This document shows positions 12,726-24,106 of a stretch of 37,156 bases of DNA, piece by piece (positions within the stretch are counted from its first letter, which is position 1; each line of letters starts with the position of its first letter). The DNA is taken from the NCBI GenBank assembly GCA_022072085.1, contig JAJVII010000052.1:1-37156 (forward strand), written 5' to 3'. The notes beneath the pieces were generated by a model. The model saw only the letters and a program-made list of their open reading frames with translations, had not been told where the DNA came from and ran no database searches. The stretch is from Phycisphaerae bacterium (GTDB lineage Bacteria > Planctomycetota > Phycisphaerae > JAJVII01). Both the position numbers and the translations under genes were made by a program.

Positions 12726-14534
<1,809 letters not shown>

Positions 14535-14596
14535 GCGCATCGCCTGACGGCCCGCCGCCGCGGCCCGCGTATCACACATCTGAAAGGGCGGACATC

Positions 14597-16897
14597 ATGA
14601 GGAATCTGGCGACGGTCCTGTGCGCGCTGGCAATGCTGACTGCCCTCGAAGCAGCCCCGGCCGCCGGCGAGGAACTGGCGGTCAAGGTCTCGGCCAACTC
14701 CGCGCGGTTCATGCCTTACCAGGTCTTCGAGCTGACCTTCCAGCACGTCAACGGCTACAAGGATCCCACCTGGGATGTCGCCATCGAACTGAAGCTCACC
14801 GCGCCCTCCGGCAAGGCCGTCACCGTCGGCGGCTTCTTCTACGGCTCCAGCCGCCCGCAGAAACCCACGCTTAAGACCGTAACGGGCAACAAGGGCCGCG
14901 AGCAGACCGTCGCGATCTGGCCCTGCGACCCCGCGGACCTGTGGAAGGCCCGCTTCGCGCCCGCGGAACTGGGCGAGTGGAAATACGCCTGGACCTTCCG
15001 CGACGTGGCCGGCGGGTCGGCTGCGGGGCAGGGGAGTTTCGCCGTGGTCCGCGGCCGCGGGCCGGCCCGGCACGGCTTCCTCCGCGTCAATCCCGATAAC
15101 CCGCGCCGGCTGATCTTCGACGACGGCTCGGCCTACTGGCCGATCGGCTGGCAGGACGGACTTGGCGACGCCAATCACAACGGCACGGTGATGGACAGCC
15201 ACGGGATGGAGGGTCCATTCCGGCTGGATTCGCAGGCGACGCGGCCGAAAGTGCCGCCCGGCGCCCTGTTCGCCCGCGGCCCGAACATGGGCCCGGTCAG
15301 CGGCGACGCCTGGCTCGGTCGCCACGCCCGGGCGGGCTTCAACATGTGGCGGTTCTCGCCCAACAACGCCACGCAGATCAAGCTGTTCGCCACGCCCGGC
15401 GGGGGCAACTCGCGCGAGCGCGTCCTCTGGGAAGAGGCCGCCATGATCGACGAGATGCTCCGCAGGATGCACGACTACGACGTGCGGACGTTCTACGGCC
15501 TGTTCGGCTACATGGACGTCTGCGCCCAGGCGGCGAAGGACGCGAAGGACAAACAGGGCCGACCGATGGCCGGCGAACTGGAGAAGGTCAAGCGGCTGAT
15601 CAAGTACAGCGTCGATCGCTGGGGCGCCTACGTGGACGTGTGGGAACTGCTCAACGAACAGAAGGCCGACCCCGCGTGGTACGAGATTATGGCCCCCTAC
15701 CTCCGCTCGGTCGACCCCTATCGCCACCCGATCAGCACGAGCTGGGAGCATCCCGAGCTGGACTGCATCGACATCAACAGCCCGCACTGGTACCAGAACG
15801 AGAACGAGCTAGACAGCGACCAGGTGACTGCCGGCCGCATCCGCGGCGCGGCGAAGTTCGCCAAGCCGATCATCTACGGCGAACAGGGCAACAACCGCGG
15901 GCGGCCGGACCTGGCTGACAAGGGCATCGGCGGCGTGTGGGATCCCGGCTCGGCGCGGCGGATGCGCGTGCGGCTGTGGACGGCCATGTTCCAGGAGGCG
16001 GCGTTCATCTTCTGGGAAACCAGCTACGCCAAGGACGGCCACTTCATGAACCTCTGGATCGGTCCCGAGGAGCGGCAATACGTCCACGCGCTCCAGGACT
16101 TCTGCGGGCTGATCGACGCGGGCGTCAGGCCGGTCCCGGCCAGAACGGGTGGGCCGCAGGCCGGCGATGTCCGCGCCTATGGGCTGGCGTCGGGCAAGTG
16201 CGTCGCCGTCTACGTCCACCACGTCCGCTGCGACCAGTGCCGCAAGCTCCGCGACGCCGGCGACGGCCAGGTGAAGCACCAGTGGGACCACGACCGCGGG
16301 CAGGTCCGCGGCCTGACAGTGACGGTCGACGCTCCGGCCGGCGCGAGCGGGTTCTGGTACGACCCGTCCAACGGGGCGATCCTGGCGCGGGTTCCCGCCG
16401 CGGCGGCCGCCGGGCAGGTGACGCTGGAAGCCCCCGCGTTCATCGTCGACCTCGCCCTGCTGATCGGCCCGGGCGGGCTGCCCGACAGCGATCGTGACGG
16501 GCAGGCCAACGACCTCGACCCCGACGACGACAACGACGGCGTGCCCGACGCCCGCGATGCCTTCCCGCTGGAGCGAGAGGAGTGGGCCGATGCCGACGGC
16601 GACCGCATCGGCGACAACCAGGACGCCGACATCGACGGCGACGGCGTGGCCGACGACCGCAACCGCAACGGCGTGGCGGACAACCAGGAGGCCGACTGGG
16701 ACGGCGACGGCGTGCCCAACGCCGGGGCGATTCCGTCCGACGCCTTCCCTCGCGACCCGAAGGAATGGCGCGACACCGACGGCGATGGCATTGGCGACAA
16801 CGCCGACCCCGACGACGACAACGACGGCTGGACCGACGTCGAGGAAAAGGTCGCCGGAACCGACCCGCTGAACCCCGTCAGCTTCCCGGCGGAGTGA
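14597..16897 (+). CDS. Secreted DUF5060-type glycoside hydrolase with thrombospondin type 3 repeats
   Basis: A 766-residue exported protein. A signal peptide (MRNLATVLCALAMLTALEAAPAAG) precedes a beta-sandwich of about 100 residues resembling DUF5060 (YQVFELTFQHVNGYKDPTWDVAIELKLTAPSG). A TIM-barrel hydrolase domain follows, with VWELLNEQ (E354, candidate acid/base) and IIYGEQGNN (E429, candidate nucleophile), as in clan A glycosidases. Residues about 630-760 are acidic calcium-binding repeats of the thrombospondin type 3 kind (DSDRDG, DPDDDNDG, DADGDRIGDNQD, DIDGDGVADD). The substrate is unknown, probably a plant or algal polysaccharide. There is no PEP-CTERM tail. The gene ends one base before the PHP-domain gene, so the two form an operon. 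AAGGG lies upstream of the ATG at 14597. Confidence 0.85.
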   Translation: MRNLATVLCALAMLTALEAAPAAGEELAVKVSANSARFMPYQVFELTFQHVNGYKDPTWDVAIELKLTAPSGKAVTVGGFFYGSSRPQKPTLKTVTGNKGREQTVAIWPCDPADLWKARFAPAELGEWKYAWTFRDVAGGSAAGQGSFAVVRGRGPARHGFLRVNPDNPRRLIFDDGSAYWPIGWQDGLGDANHNGTVMDSHGMEGPFRLDSQATRPKVPPGALFARGPNMGPVSGDAWLGRHARAGFNMWRFSPNNATQIKLFATPGGGNSRERVLWEEAAMIDEMLRRMHDYDVRTFYGLFGYMDVCAQAAKDAKDKQGRPMAGELEKVKRLIKYSVDRWGAYVDVWELLNEQKADPAWYEIMAPYLRSVDPYRHPISTSWEHPELDCIDINSPHWYQNENELDSDQVTAGRIRGAAKFAKPIIYGEQGNNRGRPDLADKGIGGVWDPGSARRMRVRLWTAMFQEAAFIFWETSYAKDGHFMNLWIGPEERQYVHALQDFCGLIDAGVRPVPARTGGPQAGDVRAYGLASGKCVAVYVHHVRCDQCRKLRDAGDGQVKHQWDHDRGQVRGLTVTVDAPAGASGFWYDPSNGAILARVPAAAAAGQVTLEAPAFIVDLALLIGPGGLPDSDRDGQANDLDPDDDNDGVPDARDAFPLEREEWADADGDRIGDNQDADIDGDGVADDRNRNGVADNQEADWDGDGVPNAGAIPSDAFPRDPKEWRDTDGDGIGDNADPDDDNDGWTDVEEKVAGTDPLNPVSFPAE

Positions 16898-18347: not shown

Positions 18348-19676
18348 ATGCGATGCACCTTGCCGATCATGCTGGGCGTTGTTCTCCTTCTGACAACGGT
18401 CCCCACGGGGGCGGCGACGTATGACTACTACGTGAAGTACAGCGGAGGCAGCGATGCCAACGCCGGCACCTCCTGGGGCGGTGCGTACGCGACAATTCAG
18501 AAAGCCTGGAACCAGATTGACACGATCATGACAGCGGCCCCTGGCGGGACCACCACGTTCAATGTCCATCTGGAGCAGACCACGGGCGTCCAGGCGATGG
18601 CCGGCGCCGACAGCGGCAACGACTGGTGGGGCTATGGCGCCAAAGGCGCCGCCGACATTCGCCTGATGGGCGGATATGATCCTTCCACCGACGCCCTTAT
18701 CGGGGTCACCAACGTGACCAATGCCTCGGGTAATGCAATCCGCGTCGACACCTACGACGTTCACGACCAGAATGTCTACCTGACATTCTCGGACATGGTC
18801 GTCCACGGTTCGACCTCGGCCGTCGCAGTCACCGGCGCCCCGGCTCCGACGATCACCGGGCTGCGGACCACCTTCATCAGCGACAGCAGCACCAGCCCCG
18901 TGGTTTCCGGAACCACGACAAACGGCAGCGGGCTGGCCCAGTTGACGCTGGACCGGTCGGTGGTCCAGGGCGGAAACATAGGAATCAGCCTGAGCAGTGG
19001 CAGTTTCCGCAGCGCCATTGTGACCATGACCAATTCCGTGGTGACCGGCCAGAGCGGCACAGGCGCCATCGGCATCTACCTCGGCACTGGCGAGAATACC
19101 ATCGGGAACCCCACCGTGACGGTCCTGCACCTGTTGAACTCGACGATCTCCAACGTCGGCGCCGGAGGCGGCACCGGCGTCCAGGTTAATTTCTCGGGCT
19201 ATGACTACAACTTGCACATCAATGCAAGCCTGGACTACGTCCTGTTTGACAACGTGGGGACCGCCATTGAATTCCTCGAAAACAGCAAGGATCAGAACCT
19301 CAACCTGGCCGGCAGCGTGAACGCCTTCTACGACTACGCCACGCTGACCTCGCAGACAAATCCGGACGGAGACGGCATCGGTGTCATCGTGAACAATCTT
19401 GTCGGCAGCCTGACCGCGCCGGCCGGCAGCGCGATGCTGGACGCCGACGGTTATCACCTGCTCGCCGGCTCGCCTGTCATCGACGCCTACACGCTCTCCG
19501 GCGGGGACCCGACCGTCGACATTGACGGCGACGCCCGGCCGCTGGGTGCTGCCGGGGACATCGGGGCCGACGAGGTGTTGCCCGTCCCCGAGCCGGCCAC
19601 GCTGGGGCTGCTGGGCCTCGGCGGGCTGAGCCTGTTGGGCGCGAGCCATCGCAGGCGCAGCCGGACCGGGCTGTAG
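18348..19676 (+). CDS. PEP-CTERM protein with beta-helix-like body
   Basis: A 442-residue exported protein. A signal peptide (MRCTLPIMLGVVLLLTTVPTGAA) is followed by YYVKYSGGSDANAGTSWGGAYATIQKAW, the opening typical of right-handed beta-helix surface proteins, and by many Thr/Ser/Gly-rich strands. Near the end, GYHLLAGSPVIDAYT and DIDGDARPLGAAGDIGADE match the closing turn of such choice-of-anchor proteins. The tail from V413 has VPEPATLGLLGLGGLSLLG and then basic residues, the PEP-CTERM signal recognised by exosortase, which is not in this window. GAAGGAGG lies 9 nt upstream of the ATG. Its last about 90 coding bases and terminator are shared with the gene at 21371. Confidence 0.88.
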   Translation: MRCTLPIMLGVVLLLTTVPTGAATYDYYVKYSGGSDANAGTSWGGAYATIQKAWNQIDTIMTAAPGGTTTFNVHLEQTTGVQAMAGADSGNDWWGYGAKGAADIRLMGGYDPSTDALIGVTNVTNASGNAIRVDTYDVHDQNVYLTFSDMVVHGSTSAVAVTGAPAPTITGLRTTFISDSSTSPVVSGTTTNGSGLAQLTLDRSVVQGGNIGISLSSGSFRSAIVTMTNSVVTGQSGTGAIGIYLGTGENTIGNPTVTVLHLLNSTISNVGAGGGTGVQVNFSGYDYNLHINASLDYVLFDNVGTAIEFLENSKDQNLNLAGSVNAFYDYATLTSQTNPDGDGIGVIVNNLVGSLTAPAGSAMLDADGYHLLAGSPVIDAYTLSGGDPTVDIDGDARPLGAAGDIGADEVLPVPEPATLGLLGLGGLSLLGASHRRRSRTGL

Positions 19677-19756
19677 TCCCGCCTCCAACACACCGTTTAC
19701 ATTCGGGCCCGGCCGAGGAGGCCGGGCCCGCTTCTTGCGCCTGCCTGAGCAAGAGA
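19584..19756 (+). repeat. PEP-CTERM 3' cassette, copy 1
   Basis: This 173-bp block covers the sorting tag (VPEP onward), stop codon, 3' UTR and terminator. It aligns without gaps to 22115..22287 with 11 differences (about 94% identity). Sequence upstream of the block is not detectably similar between the two genes. Confidence 0.85.
19704..19734 (+). terminator. Intrinsic terminator after PEP-CTERM gene 1
   Basis: An 11-bp perfect stem CGGGCCCGGCC / GGCCGGGCCCG with a GAGGA loop, then CTTCTT. Confidence 0.8.
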
Positions 19757-19951
19757 AGACAGAGCACGCCCCGTCTCCTTGCGTCTGGACGGGCTTGACA
19801 CGCATCCAGGACAACGGCGGACATTGCCGCGCGGGGTGGTATATTACCCGATGAACCGGGCGTCGTCGCGGACGTGGCGAGACGCGGGCCGCCCAAGGCG
19901 GCCGCGGCTGAAAGAAGAACAGATCGTGCCCACTTTCTCCGGTCTTGACCG

Positions 19952-21043
19952 ATGGCAGATCGTGCTCCAAGAGATCGCGTGAGTTCGGACCGTCTGGCCC
20001 AACTCATCCGGCATTGCTACGAGCGGAGCATTCCGGGAACCAGGCTGCCGGGGCAGGCCGCCCTGGCCCGGCACTTCAATTGCCCCGAGTCGGCCGTGCG
20101 GAGGGCCCTGGATTCGCTGGTGGAGGAGGGCCTTCTGGAGAAGCGCGAGCGAAAGGGGACGTTCCTCAGGTCCGCGCCGGCAACAAGCCATCTGAGTCAG
20201 ATTCGCGTCCTGACAGAGGAAGGGATCCCTCATGCAAGACAGCAGACGCTGCTGGCGGGCGTGGATGACGCGTGTCGAGCACACGGGGCTCGGATGGATG
20301 TGACCCTCCTGCCGTCGACATCGGTCACGTACGATGCGCTGGTCGGTCTCTCGGCCGGCAAGCCGCTGAACTGCGGATGGATCATGCTCTTTCTCGCTTC
20401 GCCGCCGGCAACTGCCGTGAGCGACCTGCTTACGCGCGCCGTCCCGTTCGTGGTGGTGGACGAAGTGCCGGGGCCTTTCCGCACGAACCTGGTCACGCGC
20501 GATGTGCAGGGCGCCTTATTCCAGACCACGCAACGTCTGATTCGGCTGGGCCACCGTCGAATCGCACTGGGTGTGATCTTTCGCCCGCTCCTGCCGATCG
20601 ACACGGAACGGATTCGCGGCTTCGAACTGGCGCACCAGCAATCGGGCCTGACCGTGGATCGGGACCTCGTGGTTCATGCAAGGGGCGTGCGACACGACTG
20701 CGCCCCGCTGATGGTGTCGCTGCTCAACCGACCCGACCGTCCGACCGCAGTCGTGGGCGTCGACCAGTACTGCGGATGCGCCGCGATCAGGGCTTGCGAC
20801 CGACTGGGTTTGCGGGTGCCGGAGGATGTCAGCGTCGGCGCCGCCGGGCTGCATCCGCACTTTGAACTGCCGGAACTGAATCGTCTCACCTGCTGGGATG
20901 AGGGCTCGCCTCGGGACATGGGGCGGATGGCGGTCAATCTGCTTCTGGGCCCGACCGACGGCGGAAGTCCCATGACCATCTGGCGGCAAGCCACGCTGAT
21001 CGACCGGGGATCGGTCGGCCGGCCTCCCGGCGAGGTCATCTAA
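19952..21043 (+). CDS. GntR-type regulator with LacI-like ligand domain
   Basis: A 363-residue regulator. Residues about 12-75 form a GntR winged helix (LPGQAALARHFNCPESAVRRALDSLVEEGLLEK, wing RKGTFL). The remainder resembles a LacI/GalR-type sensor: LLAGVDDACRAHGARMDVTLLP, RLIRLGHRRIALGVI, VVGVDQYCGCAAIRACDRLGLRVPEDVSVGAAG. The ligand is unknown, probably a sugar. The ATG at 19952 has no good ribosome site; a GTG at 19979 preceded by AAGAGA is an alternative start. The gene lies between the two PEP-CTERM genes and may control the downstream one, whose upstream region has two CACTAGTG-centred palindromes. It shares its architecture with the regulator at 3042..4238. Confidence 0.82.
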   Translation: MADRAPRDRVSSDRLAQLIRHCYERSIPGTRLPGQAALARHFNCPESAVRRALDSLVEEGLLEKRERKGTFLRSAPATSHLSQIRVLTEEGIPHARQQTLLAGVDDACRAHGARMDVTLLPSTSVTYDALVGLSAGKPLNCGWIMLFLASPPATAVSDLLTRAVPFVVVDEVPGPFRTNLVTRDVQGALFQTTQRLIRLGHRRIALGVIFRPLLPIDTERIRGFELAHQQSGLTVDRDLVVHARGVRHDCAPLMVSLLNRPDRPTAVVGVDQYCGCAAIRACDRLGLRVPEDVSVGAAGLHPHFELPELNRLTCWDEGSPRDMGRMAVNLLLGPTDGGSPMTIWRQATLIDRGSVGRPPGEVI

Positions 21044-21144
21044 GGGCTTGGCCTTCCCGCCAGGCGAGTCTGCCGGCCGTGTTGCTGGAATGCAACGCCC
21101 AAGAGACTTCTAATGGCGGGGCGCAGGTGGACTTACGACAGGCA

Positions 21145-21158
21145 TCGCACTAGTGCGA
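21145..21158. promoter_or_regulatory. Operator-like palindrome 1 (CACTAGTG centre)
   Basis: TCGCACTAGTGCGA is a perfect 14-bp palindrome in noncoding DNA about 100 bp downstream of the regulator gene and upstream of the TATAAT box. Confidence 0.5.
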
Positions 21159-21348
21159 CAATCTGCACTGCATTTTCTCCACAGGATTGCGTTGCAGCCG
21201 ATTTGCAGACCGGAACTCCGTATAATTCATAACATGTTGTGGTGCATAGTGTTAATGGCAATATTCTCGCCAGAATCACTCCCTGGTACACCATTTGCAT
21301 ATCCATTAGATCACGGGCGGCACAGTGCCGCAGGAGAAATTGGGCGAG

Positions 21349-21358
21349 CCACTAGTGG
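21349..21358. promoter_or_regulatory. Operator-like palindrome 2 (CACTAGTG centre)
   Basis: CCACTAGTGG shares the eight central bases with the upstream palindrome and lies directly before the GGAGGAAGG ribosome site of the PEP-CTERM gene. Confidence 0.45.
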
Positions 21359-21370
21359 AGGAAGGCCAAC

Positions 21371-22207
21371 GTGAACAGGTCACTCTTCGTCACGATGGGA
21401 ATGGCGACACTTGCAGTCCTGCTGTCGATCGGGGCAACCCCGTCGGTCGCGGCACTTGTCGGCCTTGACAGCAACGTGTCTGCGGATCAGACCTTTGCCG
21501 ACGGCCTGTTTGTCTACGACACCTTCAGCGCGCCGGGCAGCGCTGTGGGCTTCGCCTCCTCGACCTATGGCGGAGTGGATTGGAGTCTGGCCTCAGACCG
21601 CTACGTCGCCGGAAACGGCGGAACGGTCGTGCGGGTTCAGGGCGTCAACAAGAATCGCTATCTCCCCTCGGAAATCAACTACGACTCCGCTCCCGGGGCG
21701 AACAACACCTACTGGTCCATCGTCGTGATGGCCAACCCCACGTACGGCGGGGGAAGCAATAATGCTCAGTTCAGCTCCGAGGGCGCGTTCAGTGACGGCA
21801 CGGCCAACTGGACCAACGGCTACAAGGGCCAGGTCCCCGTTCCGGGCGTTTCCCAGGACGCCAATTACCATATGTTCGTGTCGAAGATGACGTGGACCGC
21901 TCACGACACGCGGGACATCACGGTCTGGTTCGACCCGGACCTGAGCCTGGCCGAGAATAACGCGGTCAACACGGCGAAGGTCAACGTGGACAATGTCTCC
22001 AATAGCGGCTCAAACGTTCGCCTCTATATCCTCGGTCTCGGGGCCACCGACGTGGACGCGACCTTTGACTACTTCGGCGTCTCGACCGGTTCGCCGTTCA
22101 CCGTCGCTGCCGCGGTCCCCGAGCCGGGGACGCTGGCGCTGCTGGGCCTCGGCGGGCTGAGCCTGTTGGGCGCGAGCCGTCGGAGGCGCAGCCGGGCCGG
22201 GCTGTAG
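21371..22207 (+). CDS. PEP-CTERM sorting-domain protein
   Basis: A 278-residue exported protein starting with GTG at 21371, preceded by GGAGGAAGG. A signal peptide (MNRSLFVTMGMATLAVLLSIGATPSVAA) leads into a beta-rich domain of about 200 residues that looks like a jelly-roll: FVYDTFSAPGSAVGFAS, YVAGNGGTVVRVQG, YWSIVVMANPTYGGG, ITVWFDPDL, NVRLYILGLG, ATFDYFGVS. LamG-like or DUF-type PEP-CTERM proteins show this pattern, but I cannot name the family. The tail VPEPGTLALLGLGGLSLLG plus basic residues begins at V249. Its DNA is nearly identical to the tail of the gene at 18348, while the bodies differ. Confidence 0.85.
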   Translation: MNRSLFVTMGMATLAVLLSIGATPSVAALVGLDSNVSADQTFADGLFVYDTFSAPGSAVGFASSTYGGVDWSLASDRYVAGNGGTVVRVQGVNKNRYLPSEINYDSAPGANNTYWSIVVMANPTYGGGSNNAQFSSEGAFSDGTANWTNGYKGQVPVPGVSQDANYHMFVSKMTWTAHDTRDITVWFDPDLSLAENNAVNTAKVNVDNVSNSGSNVRLYILGLGATDVDATFDYFGVSTGSPFTVAAAVPEPGTLALLGLGGLSLLGASRRRRSRAGL

Positions 22208-22287
22208 TCCCGCCTCCAACACACCGTTTACAGTCGGGCCCGGCCGAAGAGGTCGGGCCCGCTTCTTGCGCCTGTCTGAGGAAGAGA
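22115..22287 (+). repeat. PEP-CTERM 3' cassette, copy 2
   Basis: The partner of 19584..19756: same length, no gaps, 11 mismatches. Identity continues through the stop codon and the noncoding 3' UTR (CCCGCCTCCAACACACCG) into the terminator, then stops. Confidence 0.85.
22234..22265 (+). terminator. Intrinsic terminator after PEP-CTERM gene 2
   Basis: CGGGCCCGGCC pairs with GGTCGGGCCCG. One C-to-T change relative to copy 1 is tolerated as a G-U pair, so the stem is conserved. CTTCTT follows. Confidence 0.75.
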
Positions 22288-22317: not shown

Positions 22318-23646
22318 TTACTCGGATCGGCCCGATGCCTTGCGAAGGGCCTCCAGGTACGCCGCATCGACGGTTCCTCCGAGCTGCTGGCAGGCCTTCA
22401 CGTCGGCCCAGGCCCGGTCGTAAGCCTTCTGGTAAATGAATACGATGGCCCGGCACCTGTGCCACGCCTCGTTCTTCGGGTCCAGCTCGATGGCCTTGCC
22501 GTAGTCGGCGGCGGATCGGACGAGATCCCCCTTGCGAGCGTAGGCCTGCCCGCGAGAGCCGTAGAAACCGACGTGCTTCGGTTTCAGCTCGATGGCTTTG
22601 CTGAAGTCGGCGATGGCCCGGTCCTCGTCGCCCTTCCTGTCATGGTAGACCCCGCGTTCCTGGTAGATGAACGCGTCATCCGGGCGCAGTGCGATGGCCT
22701 TGGTGGCGTCCGCGATGGCCTTGTCGAGTTGGCCGTCTCGGGCAGTCAGGCCGGCGCGGATGCGATAGCCGTCGACGGACGCGGGGTCCACTTCGATGGC
22801 CTTGTCGCAGTCGGCCAGCGCCAGAACGAGCTTGCCGAGTTGCTCGTAGACCAGGGCACGCTTGATGTAGGAGTTATCGTCCCGCGGGTCCAGTTCGATG
22901 GCCCTGGTGAAATCGGCGAGGGCCCTGACGTTGTCGCCCTTGCAGTAGTAGGCAAAGCCACGGTTGTTGTAGGTGGATGCAGTGGGTTCCCGCTCGATCA
23001 CCGTCGTCAAGTCGGCGATGGCCCGGTCGCGGTCGCTCCGGACCAGGTAGGCCATGGCACGCGCCTTATAACCGGCCAGGTCCTTCGGATCGAGTTCGAT
23101 GCCCTTGCTGTAATCGGCAATGGCCAGATCGGACTGGCCGCTGATTTGGCGGGCGCGGCCGCGGCCGAGGTAGTGCCTGGCGTTGTTCGGATCCAGTTCG
23201 ATGGCGCTGGTGTAGTCGGCCGCCGCCTCCCGGTATCGCCCCATCTGCTCGTAGGCGGTGGCCCGACTGGTGCGGGCAGCGACATTCCCGGGCTCCCGTT
23301 CGATGGCCGCGGTGAAGGCGGCGAGGGCTCTGGCGAAATCGGCCTCGGCCTGGGCACGCTTGCCCTGGCGGCGATAGGCCAGGCCCCGTTCGAGGCGGAA
23401 GCAGGGGTCATTCGGGCTCAGCTCGATGGCCCGCGTGAACTGGGCGATCGCCCCATCGTAGTCGTGCCTCCGCTCGCAGAGCAGGCCTTGTTCAAAGCAG
23501 TCCACCGCGTCCGTCCCCGGGTCGGGCTGGGAGGCCGGCCCGAAGGCATCGGCCGCCTGGCTCGCCGGCGCCTCGAACATGCCGGCGGGCGGTAGGAGCA
23601 GGGCGGTAGCCAGGATCGACAGAAGAGGGATCGACGTGCGAGACAT
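22318..23646 (-). CDS. Exported tetratricopeptide repeat protein
   Basis: A 442-residue protein with a signal peptide (MSRTSIPLLSILATALLLPP) and about ten consecutive TPR units of 34 residues from about residue 50 to 425. Units have the usual pattern, for example YDGAIAQFTRAIELSPND and YREAAADYTSAIELDPNN, with AIELDP recurring at each repeat boundary. TPR arrays are protein-binding scaffolds; the partner is unknown. The start at 23646 is chosen because a signal peptide begins there and AAGGGG lies about 5 nt upstream; the longer open frame to 23832 is low quality. It faces away from the parS region and is convergent with the PEP-CTERM gene. Confidence 0.88.
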   Translation of the reverse strand: MSRTSIPLLSILATALLLPPAGMFEAPASQAADAFGPASQPDPGTDAVDCFEQGLLCERRHDYDGAIAQFTRAIELSPNDPCFRLERGLAYRRQGKRAQAEADFARALAAFTAAIEREPGNVAARTSRATAYEQMGRYREAAADYTSAIELDPNNARHYLGRGRARQISGQSDLAIADYSKGIELDPKDLAGYKARAMAYLVRSDRDRAIADLTTVIEREPTASTYNNRGFAYYCKGDNVRALADFTRAIELDPRDDNSYIKRALVYEQLGKLVLALADCDKAIEVDPASVDGYRIRAGLTARDGQLDKAIADATKAIALRPDDAFIYQERGVYHDRKGDEDRAIADFSKAIELKPKHVGFYGSRGQAYARKGDLVRSAADYGKAIELDPKNEAWHRCRAIVFIYQKAYDRAWADVKACQQLGGTVDAAYLEALRKASGRSE

Positions 23647-24106
23647 GGGCTGCCCCTTGAGTGGACCAAGTCTGGCTGTGGCGTCAGCCACGCTACCCCT
23701 GTTGGCCGGGGCTGTCAACCGGAACGCCGGGGACGTCCAGAACTGCCCGGGGCCGCCTGCGCCGGGATCGCCTTCATCCGACTTCGCGAAGACGTTTCGC
23801 CGGGCAAGCCCCCGGCCGGTCGGCCGGGGCAACTCTCACCCCCGGCCTTTGACCGGGATCCCTCCCTTCGCGGGCGAGCGGGCAAAACGCATTTGACCCG
23901 CGCGGCGGGGGCGCGAACGCGGTTGGGGCGACGATGTCAGGGGGACCGGGGGGGGATTTCCATGCAACGCATCGCGATGGTTGGCCGACGCGGGGCGATG
24001 TTCTGTGAAATCCTGGTCGGGCGGCGACGTAAACACTGGACTTGCGCGCGAAAATCGCGCGTTCCGAAAAACGCGCTAAACATTGTCGGTACAGGCGGGC
24101 GGGGCA

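Follow-up and report, generated by a model that had tools for sequence, protein, structure and literature searches.

How do two genes with unrelated bodies come to end in nearly the same DNA, after the stop codon as well as before it? The question is raised by a window of 37,156 nucleotides, which is contig C53 of the planctomycete genome G000 (5.49 Mb, 72 contigs). Two genes on the same strand, with a GntR/LacI-type regulator gene in between, encode substrates of the PEP-CTERM/exosortase system (TIGR02595, PF07589; Table 1). A preliminary description of this DNA saw in their common 3' end a single moving cassette of sorting tag, stop codon and terminator. We argue that PEP-CTERM tag DNA has probably been copied by ectopic recombination or gene conversion, mostly between neighbours.

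Table 1. Features of the window that bear on the shared 3' end
Feature	Position	Strand	Evidence and remarks
Gene 1, 442-aa PEP-CTERM protein	18348..19676	+	ORF, PF07589, NF041518, TIGR02595
Block copy 1: VPEP codons, transmembrane helix, Arg-rich tail, stop TAG (19674-19676), 80 nt of 3' UTR	19584..19756	+	94% gapless vs copy 2
Hairpin copy 1: GC-rich, 11-bp stem, 5-nt loop, without U-tract	19704..19730	+	RNAfold -36.3 kcal/mol, z -3.0
Regulator: GntR-type HTH and LacI-type periplasmic-binding-like sensor	19952..21043	+	PF00392, PF13377; upstream of gene 2
Gene 2, 278-aa PEP-CTERM protein	21371..22207	+	ORF, PF07589, NF041538 partial
Block copy 2: stop TAG (22205-22207)	22115..22287	+	94% gapless vs copy 1
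Hairpin copy 2: GC-rich	22235..22261	+	RNAfold -37.3 kcal/mol, z about -3.7
TPR-repeat protein gene, convergent, just 3' of copy 2	22318..23832	-	PF00515 and others; context, outside block

Two unrelated genes with one 3' end

Both genes end in a PEP motif, a hydrophobic helix and a basic tail, and both score above the curated cut-offs for the sorting domain. Against PF07589 gene 1 has an E-value of 8e-7 (29.3 bits) and gene 2 of 2e-6 (27.8 bits; cut-off 20.7). Against TIGR02595 they reach 24.2 and 26.3 bits (cut-off 16). Each begins with a hydrophobic, signal-like sequence. Gene 1 has a choice-of-anchor Q domain close to its C-terminus (NF041518 choice_anch_Q, E 5.5e-7), and gene 2 has a C-terminal partial match to NF041538 EDSAP-1 (E 4e-8). 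An exosortase is very likely present in G000, because the genome has about 90 PEP-CTERM genes.

The bodies were described as unrelated, and this holds: neither blastn nor blastp finds similarity between them. For the body of gene 2, a search of 61 genomes of the class finds no relative at E <= 1e-5, and neither body has a useful match among PDB sequences. A repeat search of the window nevertheless gives a gapless direct repeat in which 162 of 173 bases are identical, just as the preliminary description had it (E about 1e-72 among PEP-CTERM 3' ends). Of the 11 differences, 6 lie among the 93 coding positions from VPEP to stop and the remaining 5 among the 80 positions of the UTR. The repeat starts at the VPEP codons and ends 80 bases beyond the stop; identity is at background upstream of 19584/22115 and beyond about 19756/22287, and the two genes have no 5' DNA in common. 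It was also claimed that selection on the protein cannot explain identity in the UTR. We agree, as the sharing includes synonymous sites and untranslated DNA. The protein does not explain the identity of the block, because the two copies agree at 18 of 19 four-fold degenerate sites of the tag, where unlinked gene pairs agree at 59%, and at 75 of 80 UTR bases. Recombination or gene conversion at the block, which the preliminary description also proposed, is the best explanation of sharing at the DNA level. Gene conversion is recognised by synonymous and non-coding identity above that of other copies and by sharp limits, and this is what we find in the window pair, across the genome and in relatives.

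The hairpin after the stop codon deserves more caution. The terminator label given to it is unproven, because no U-tract follows the stem in either copy; the terminator scan does not report it. It is a strong GC hairpin that lacks the U-tract of an intrinsic (rho-independent) terminator. Stem changes, in the plural, were said to preserve pairing by G-U. There is one such change (C to U), and the other difference between the two hairpins is in the loop. We reject this compensation as structural evidence, since a single change is too little to count.

The window's UTR has only one other match in G000 (C44:30538-30606, 81%). It belongs to an orphan copy between genes (G000:C44:30538-30659, minus strand) that is 82% identical to the window block and extends into the 3' half of the tag. 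This copy is a remnant of the window's tag-UTR block, because it lacks a gene body and one base is deleted from its tag. The family search finds no PEP-CTERM gene on contig C44. Nearly all other PEP-CTERM genes of G000 have different 3' UTRs, and an exact search of the genome collection with a degenerate 24-nt pattern of the UTR gave no match in other genomes. A dispersed, REP-like high-copy repeat in the UTR can be rejected with three copies only in 5.49 Mb. The preliminary description had staked its reading on other PEP-CTERM genes resembling this UTR and on the two bodies not being homologous in DNA. The first point largely fails, as only the orphan has this UTR; the second stands.

Two other observations on the window should be recorded. 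Of the 18 LacI-type (Peripla_BP_3) regulator genes in G000, 16 have a PEP-CTERM tag no more than 3.5 kb away, and nearly all of these are upstream of the tagged gene; such zones cover 9.2% of the genome (binomial P about 3e-15). Examples besides the window's own (19952-21043) are C6:86448, C9:69613, C64:15523, C12:91838, C10:64205, C45:2735, C7:123378, C23:70574 and others, and the pairing is also seen in the same-family genome G001. This suggests that a sugar-sensing regulator and a PEP-CTERM gene may form a module. In the C-terminal part of a glycosidase-like protein at 14396-16897, the DNA contains imperfect repeats, Asp-rich and each about 100 nt long (family D3).

Neighbours and mosaics across genomes

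A PEP-CTERM family search of G000 gave 94 hits, and 91 genes, each taken with the sequence around it, were compared with one another. It was predicted that identity between such 3' ends would drop sharply at the VPEP codons and after the terminator. Identity does rise abruptly at the PEP codons in many neighbours, but the downstream end is not fixed. Tags were then compared in 44 neighbour pairs (<10 kb) with bodies judged non-homologous by BLAST, and genes were permuted over positions. The mean tag score is 62.2 against 38.8 under permutation, and 11 of the 44 pairs score at least 80 where 0.35 are expected (permutation p = 1e-4). The 60 nt upstream of PEP have no excess in the same pairs (14.5 vs 14.0 permuted).

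How far the sharing runs differs from pair to pair. Three genes on C34 are 92-96% alike in tag DNA over 90-99 nt, the C42 pair is 96% alike over 82 nt, and C8_70092/73830 is 96% alike over 69 nt. In these, and in G007:C11 42318/44217, only the tag is shared and the UTRs are unrelated. C10_36430/38288 (77% over 158 nt) reaches +54/+72, and C57_15786/20995 (71% over 231 nt) reaches +113/+131. One group was left out of the counts: C25_98851, C32_26507, C22_4183 and C51_31650 are alike for about 75-235 nt past the stop and have dissimilar tags. Without tag similarity this resembles a common downstream element, perhaps a shared start of the downstream gene.

Tag exchange is seen most directly in mosaic genes. 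The body of C8_154863 is 90% identical in DNA to C14_30210. Within the PEP codons it switches partner, and from there, through tag and UTR into the first part of a sulfatase-like gene downstream, it matches C2_399 at 98.9% identity. C12_94490 has a body similar to C7_127356 (E 1.6e-32) and a tag 89% identical to that of its neighbour, C7_125706. Gene 1 of the window is itself a mosaic. It is homologous to C10_31897 (E 1.4e-35; 77% DNA identity over 224 nt) until about 38 nt into the tag, where it diverges and then matches gene 2. C8_154863, C12_94490 and gene 1, all from one strain of the species, are candidates for unidirectional transfer, for which the mark would be a donor-like tract in a recipient against an orthologous background. 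It must be noted that contigs C2 and C8 both end within the 470-nt repeat (C2:1-476 and C8:154863-155338, 98.9%), of which a search found no third copy. Overall, tags are enriched near contig ends, with 11 of 91 within 1.2 kb where 2.9 are expected (p = 1.4e-4), and tag repeats may add to assembly breaks. Some tags end very short reading frames of 30-62 aa (G000 C34:3223, C2:46576 and C22:88744; G006:C30:21075; G009:C27:24106; G011:C96:5721 and C137:24760). These are either frameshifted pseudogenes or detached tags.

The excess among neighbours recurs within the class. Permutation gives p = 2e-4 in G007 and again in G011. In G006 and G009 the tags of neighbours are no more alike than expected (p 0.47 and 0.69), though UTRs are shared locally, and G002 and G003 have too few pairs for this test. 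Measured from PEP to past the stop, the block of G011:C52 (92% over 204 nt) runs from 0 to +125/+126, that of G007:C33 (84%) from -5 to +124, and that of G007:C11 (74%) from -2 to +53. Those of G006:C35 (76%) and G006:C10 (75%) reach +70/+76 and +98/+100. The G011 C51/C52 pair (92%, -6 to +145) was counted as unlinked since its genes are on different contigs. The G011:C52 block recurs once more at an unlinked site, G011:C101 (83-85%), where it is attached to yet another unrelated body. Across all genomes, blocks that reach at least 30 nt past the stop are found in 9 of 139 near pairs and 9 of 5745 far pairs (odds ratio 44, p = 7e-11). This recurrence in the tandem genes of relatives suggests that tags are copied from gene to gene by recombination.

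In 31 strong neighbour blocks the 5' end is always -13 to 0 from PEP, and the 3' end is anywhere from -66 to +125. The 5' limit at PEP alone is unremarkable, because the tag is the sole homology. What is remarkable is that the sharing favours neighbours, includes synonymous sites and overruns the stop codon into the UTR. A single cassette with fixed boundaries is not supported and is rejected as the general rule: other pairs share a tag and UTR of their own, copies are few, and the position of the downstream end differs widely, some blocks stopping inside the tag and others reaching about +125.

Proposed copying from the tag and its alternatives

We argue that PEP-CTERM tag DNA, dispersed over the genome, would serve as a substrate for recombination that is mostly local. 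Ectopic homologous recombination, either gene conversion or a crossover with later loss of one product, would start in the conserved tag codons. One gene's 3' end would be overwritten by that of another, usually a same-strand neighbour within about 5 kb. The tract would not extend upstream, because the bodies are unrelated and homology ends at the PEP codons. Downstream it would run for a variable length, as far as the stop codon or into the 3' UTR, and sometimes beyond; in the window pair it would have gone 80 nt beyond the stop, hairpin included. The outcome would be a body re-joined to a working exosortase-sorting tag, and one genome's tags would be kept alike. Because the 3' ends vary, tracts seeded in tag homology fit the data better than does a mobile cassette, which would have fixed ends. 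The data show that the DNA itself was copied, preferentially between neighbours, with a 5' limit at PEP, a variable 3' limit and mosaic genes as products. From this we infer a recombination pathway, a direction of copying and any selective benefit.

The tag-only cases fit gene conversion. Where the sharing extends into the UTR, three routes are compatible with the data: conversion that is imprecise at one end, break-induced copying, or duplication in tandem and later body replacement. There is no independent homology at the tract end of the window pair, 80 nt past the stop, so conversion there needs one non-homologous or imprecise end. This is where the strongest alternative must be weighed. 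One can imagine that a gene was duplicated in tandem and a foreign body then swapped in, so that the 3' block, and sometimes the end encoding the signal peptide, was simply inherited and the tag was the 3' crossover point. Inclusion of the UTR then requires no homology on both sides of a tract. Neighbours with clearly homologous bodies are common among PEP-CTERM genes (the C6 array, C22), and the tandem genes of G007:C33, G006:C21, G009:C23 and G000:C45 share promoter and signal-peptide DNA as well as tags around bodies that differ; the first three share the UTR too. Such 5' ends fit duplication with body replacement, or fast divergence of the body, as well as they fit conversion, and for these arrays the evidence favours duplication with body replacement. 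However, the window pair has no shared 5' DNA and would need a second, unexplained breakpoint, and tag-only sharing with unrelated UTRs, as in the C34, C42, C8 and G007:C11 cases above, is not expected. Recombination at the tag would still be required, and the two accounts differ only in the order of events. As a general explanation we consider duplication with body replacement unlikely. A LepA scan for the ancestral site by synteny gave only distant planctomycetes, the best at 66% (a Phycisphaeraceae MAG).

A true mobile cassette of tag, stop and hairpin, with defined ends and moved by a recombinase or a retro-type mechanism, is far less probable still. The orphan on C44 without a body could be read that way, and so could the 3' end of the window pair shortly past the hairpin. 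A mobile gene cassette has fixed ends or a recombination site and many dispersed copies. Here there are three copies genome-wide and no match to the exact degenerate pattern in other genomes, every pair shares its own UTR up to a widely variable 3' end, and the aligned ends have no common terminal motif.

It is equally improbable that the genes are old tandem paralogues with bodies diverged past recognition and a tag and UTR held by selection: tandem paralogues do exist, and Haft et al. 2006 (PMC1569441) place PEP-CTERM proteins among the sets that evolve fastest in their genomes, but near-identity at four-fold sites and in the UTR stands against zero alignable body and lengths of 442 and 278 aa, unlinked tags share far fewer four-fold sites, and the unrelated UTRs of nearly all other PEP-CTERM genes mean that this UTR is under no general constraint, so for the window pair this reading is refuted unless the UTR is under extreme constraint.

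Copying by recombination seeded in the tag is the reading we retain. A further idea is offered only tentatively: the tag-coding DNA may have a second role as the place where the genome shuffles its surface proteins by crossover, with recombination seeded in about 90 dispersed tags per genome. If true, this role would supply new bodies with an existing anchor and the 3' UTR that goes with it, and would explain the lineage-specific tags of exosortase substrates on unrelated bodies.

Relation to known systems

In environmental bacteria, PEP-CTERM proteins make up a large surface proteome. In the part of Haft et al. 2006 (PMC1569441) used here, the tags cluster by species, the bodies are mostly orphans, usually without homology outside the tag, duplication and loss are frequent, and a paralogous expansion of the domain is inferred from protein trees. 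Near-identical tags on unrelated proteins were previously left at that expansion. Copying of tag and UTR at the DNA level, the sharp PEP boundary and the neighbour effect are absent from that part of the paper. A literature search that combined PEP-CTERM with gene conversion or concerted evolution gave nothing on the subject. Together, mosaics, the preference for neighbours and DNA tracts that begin abruptly at PEP make a testable mechanism. They are also a warning that tag similarity says little on the relatedness of proteins.

Neither ectopic conversion nor module shuffling is new as a kind of process. What appears undescribed in the literature searched is their limitation to a sorting tag and UTR, in tandem genes whose bodies are unrelated. 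Conversion of pilin and opacity genes is an example of intragenomic gene conversion. The tag copying is like the concerted evolution of bacterial gene families (e.g. PMC6053082) in that sequence is overwritten locally and synonymous and non-coding identity is left behind. Classical gene conversion, however, homogenises otherwise homologous genes, whereas here only the 3' tag and a variable stretch of UTR are shared and the rest is unrelated. LPXTG-anchored surface proteins of Gram-positives have conserved C-terminal anchor regions and recombined N-terminal modules. That is another anchor system in another envelope; in our case untranslated 3' DNA is included and the tag family has about 90 genes across the genome. 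In choice-of-anchor families (NCBIfam, e.g. NF041518) one body domain is found with different sorting tails. Gene 1 carries such a domain, choice_anch_Q, but those families are known from comparisons of proteins across species, and what we describe is an exchange of DNA within one genome.
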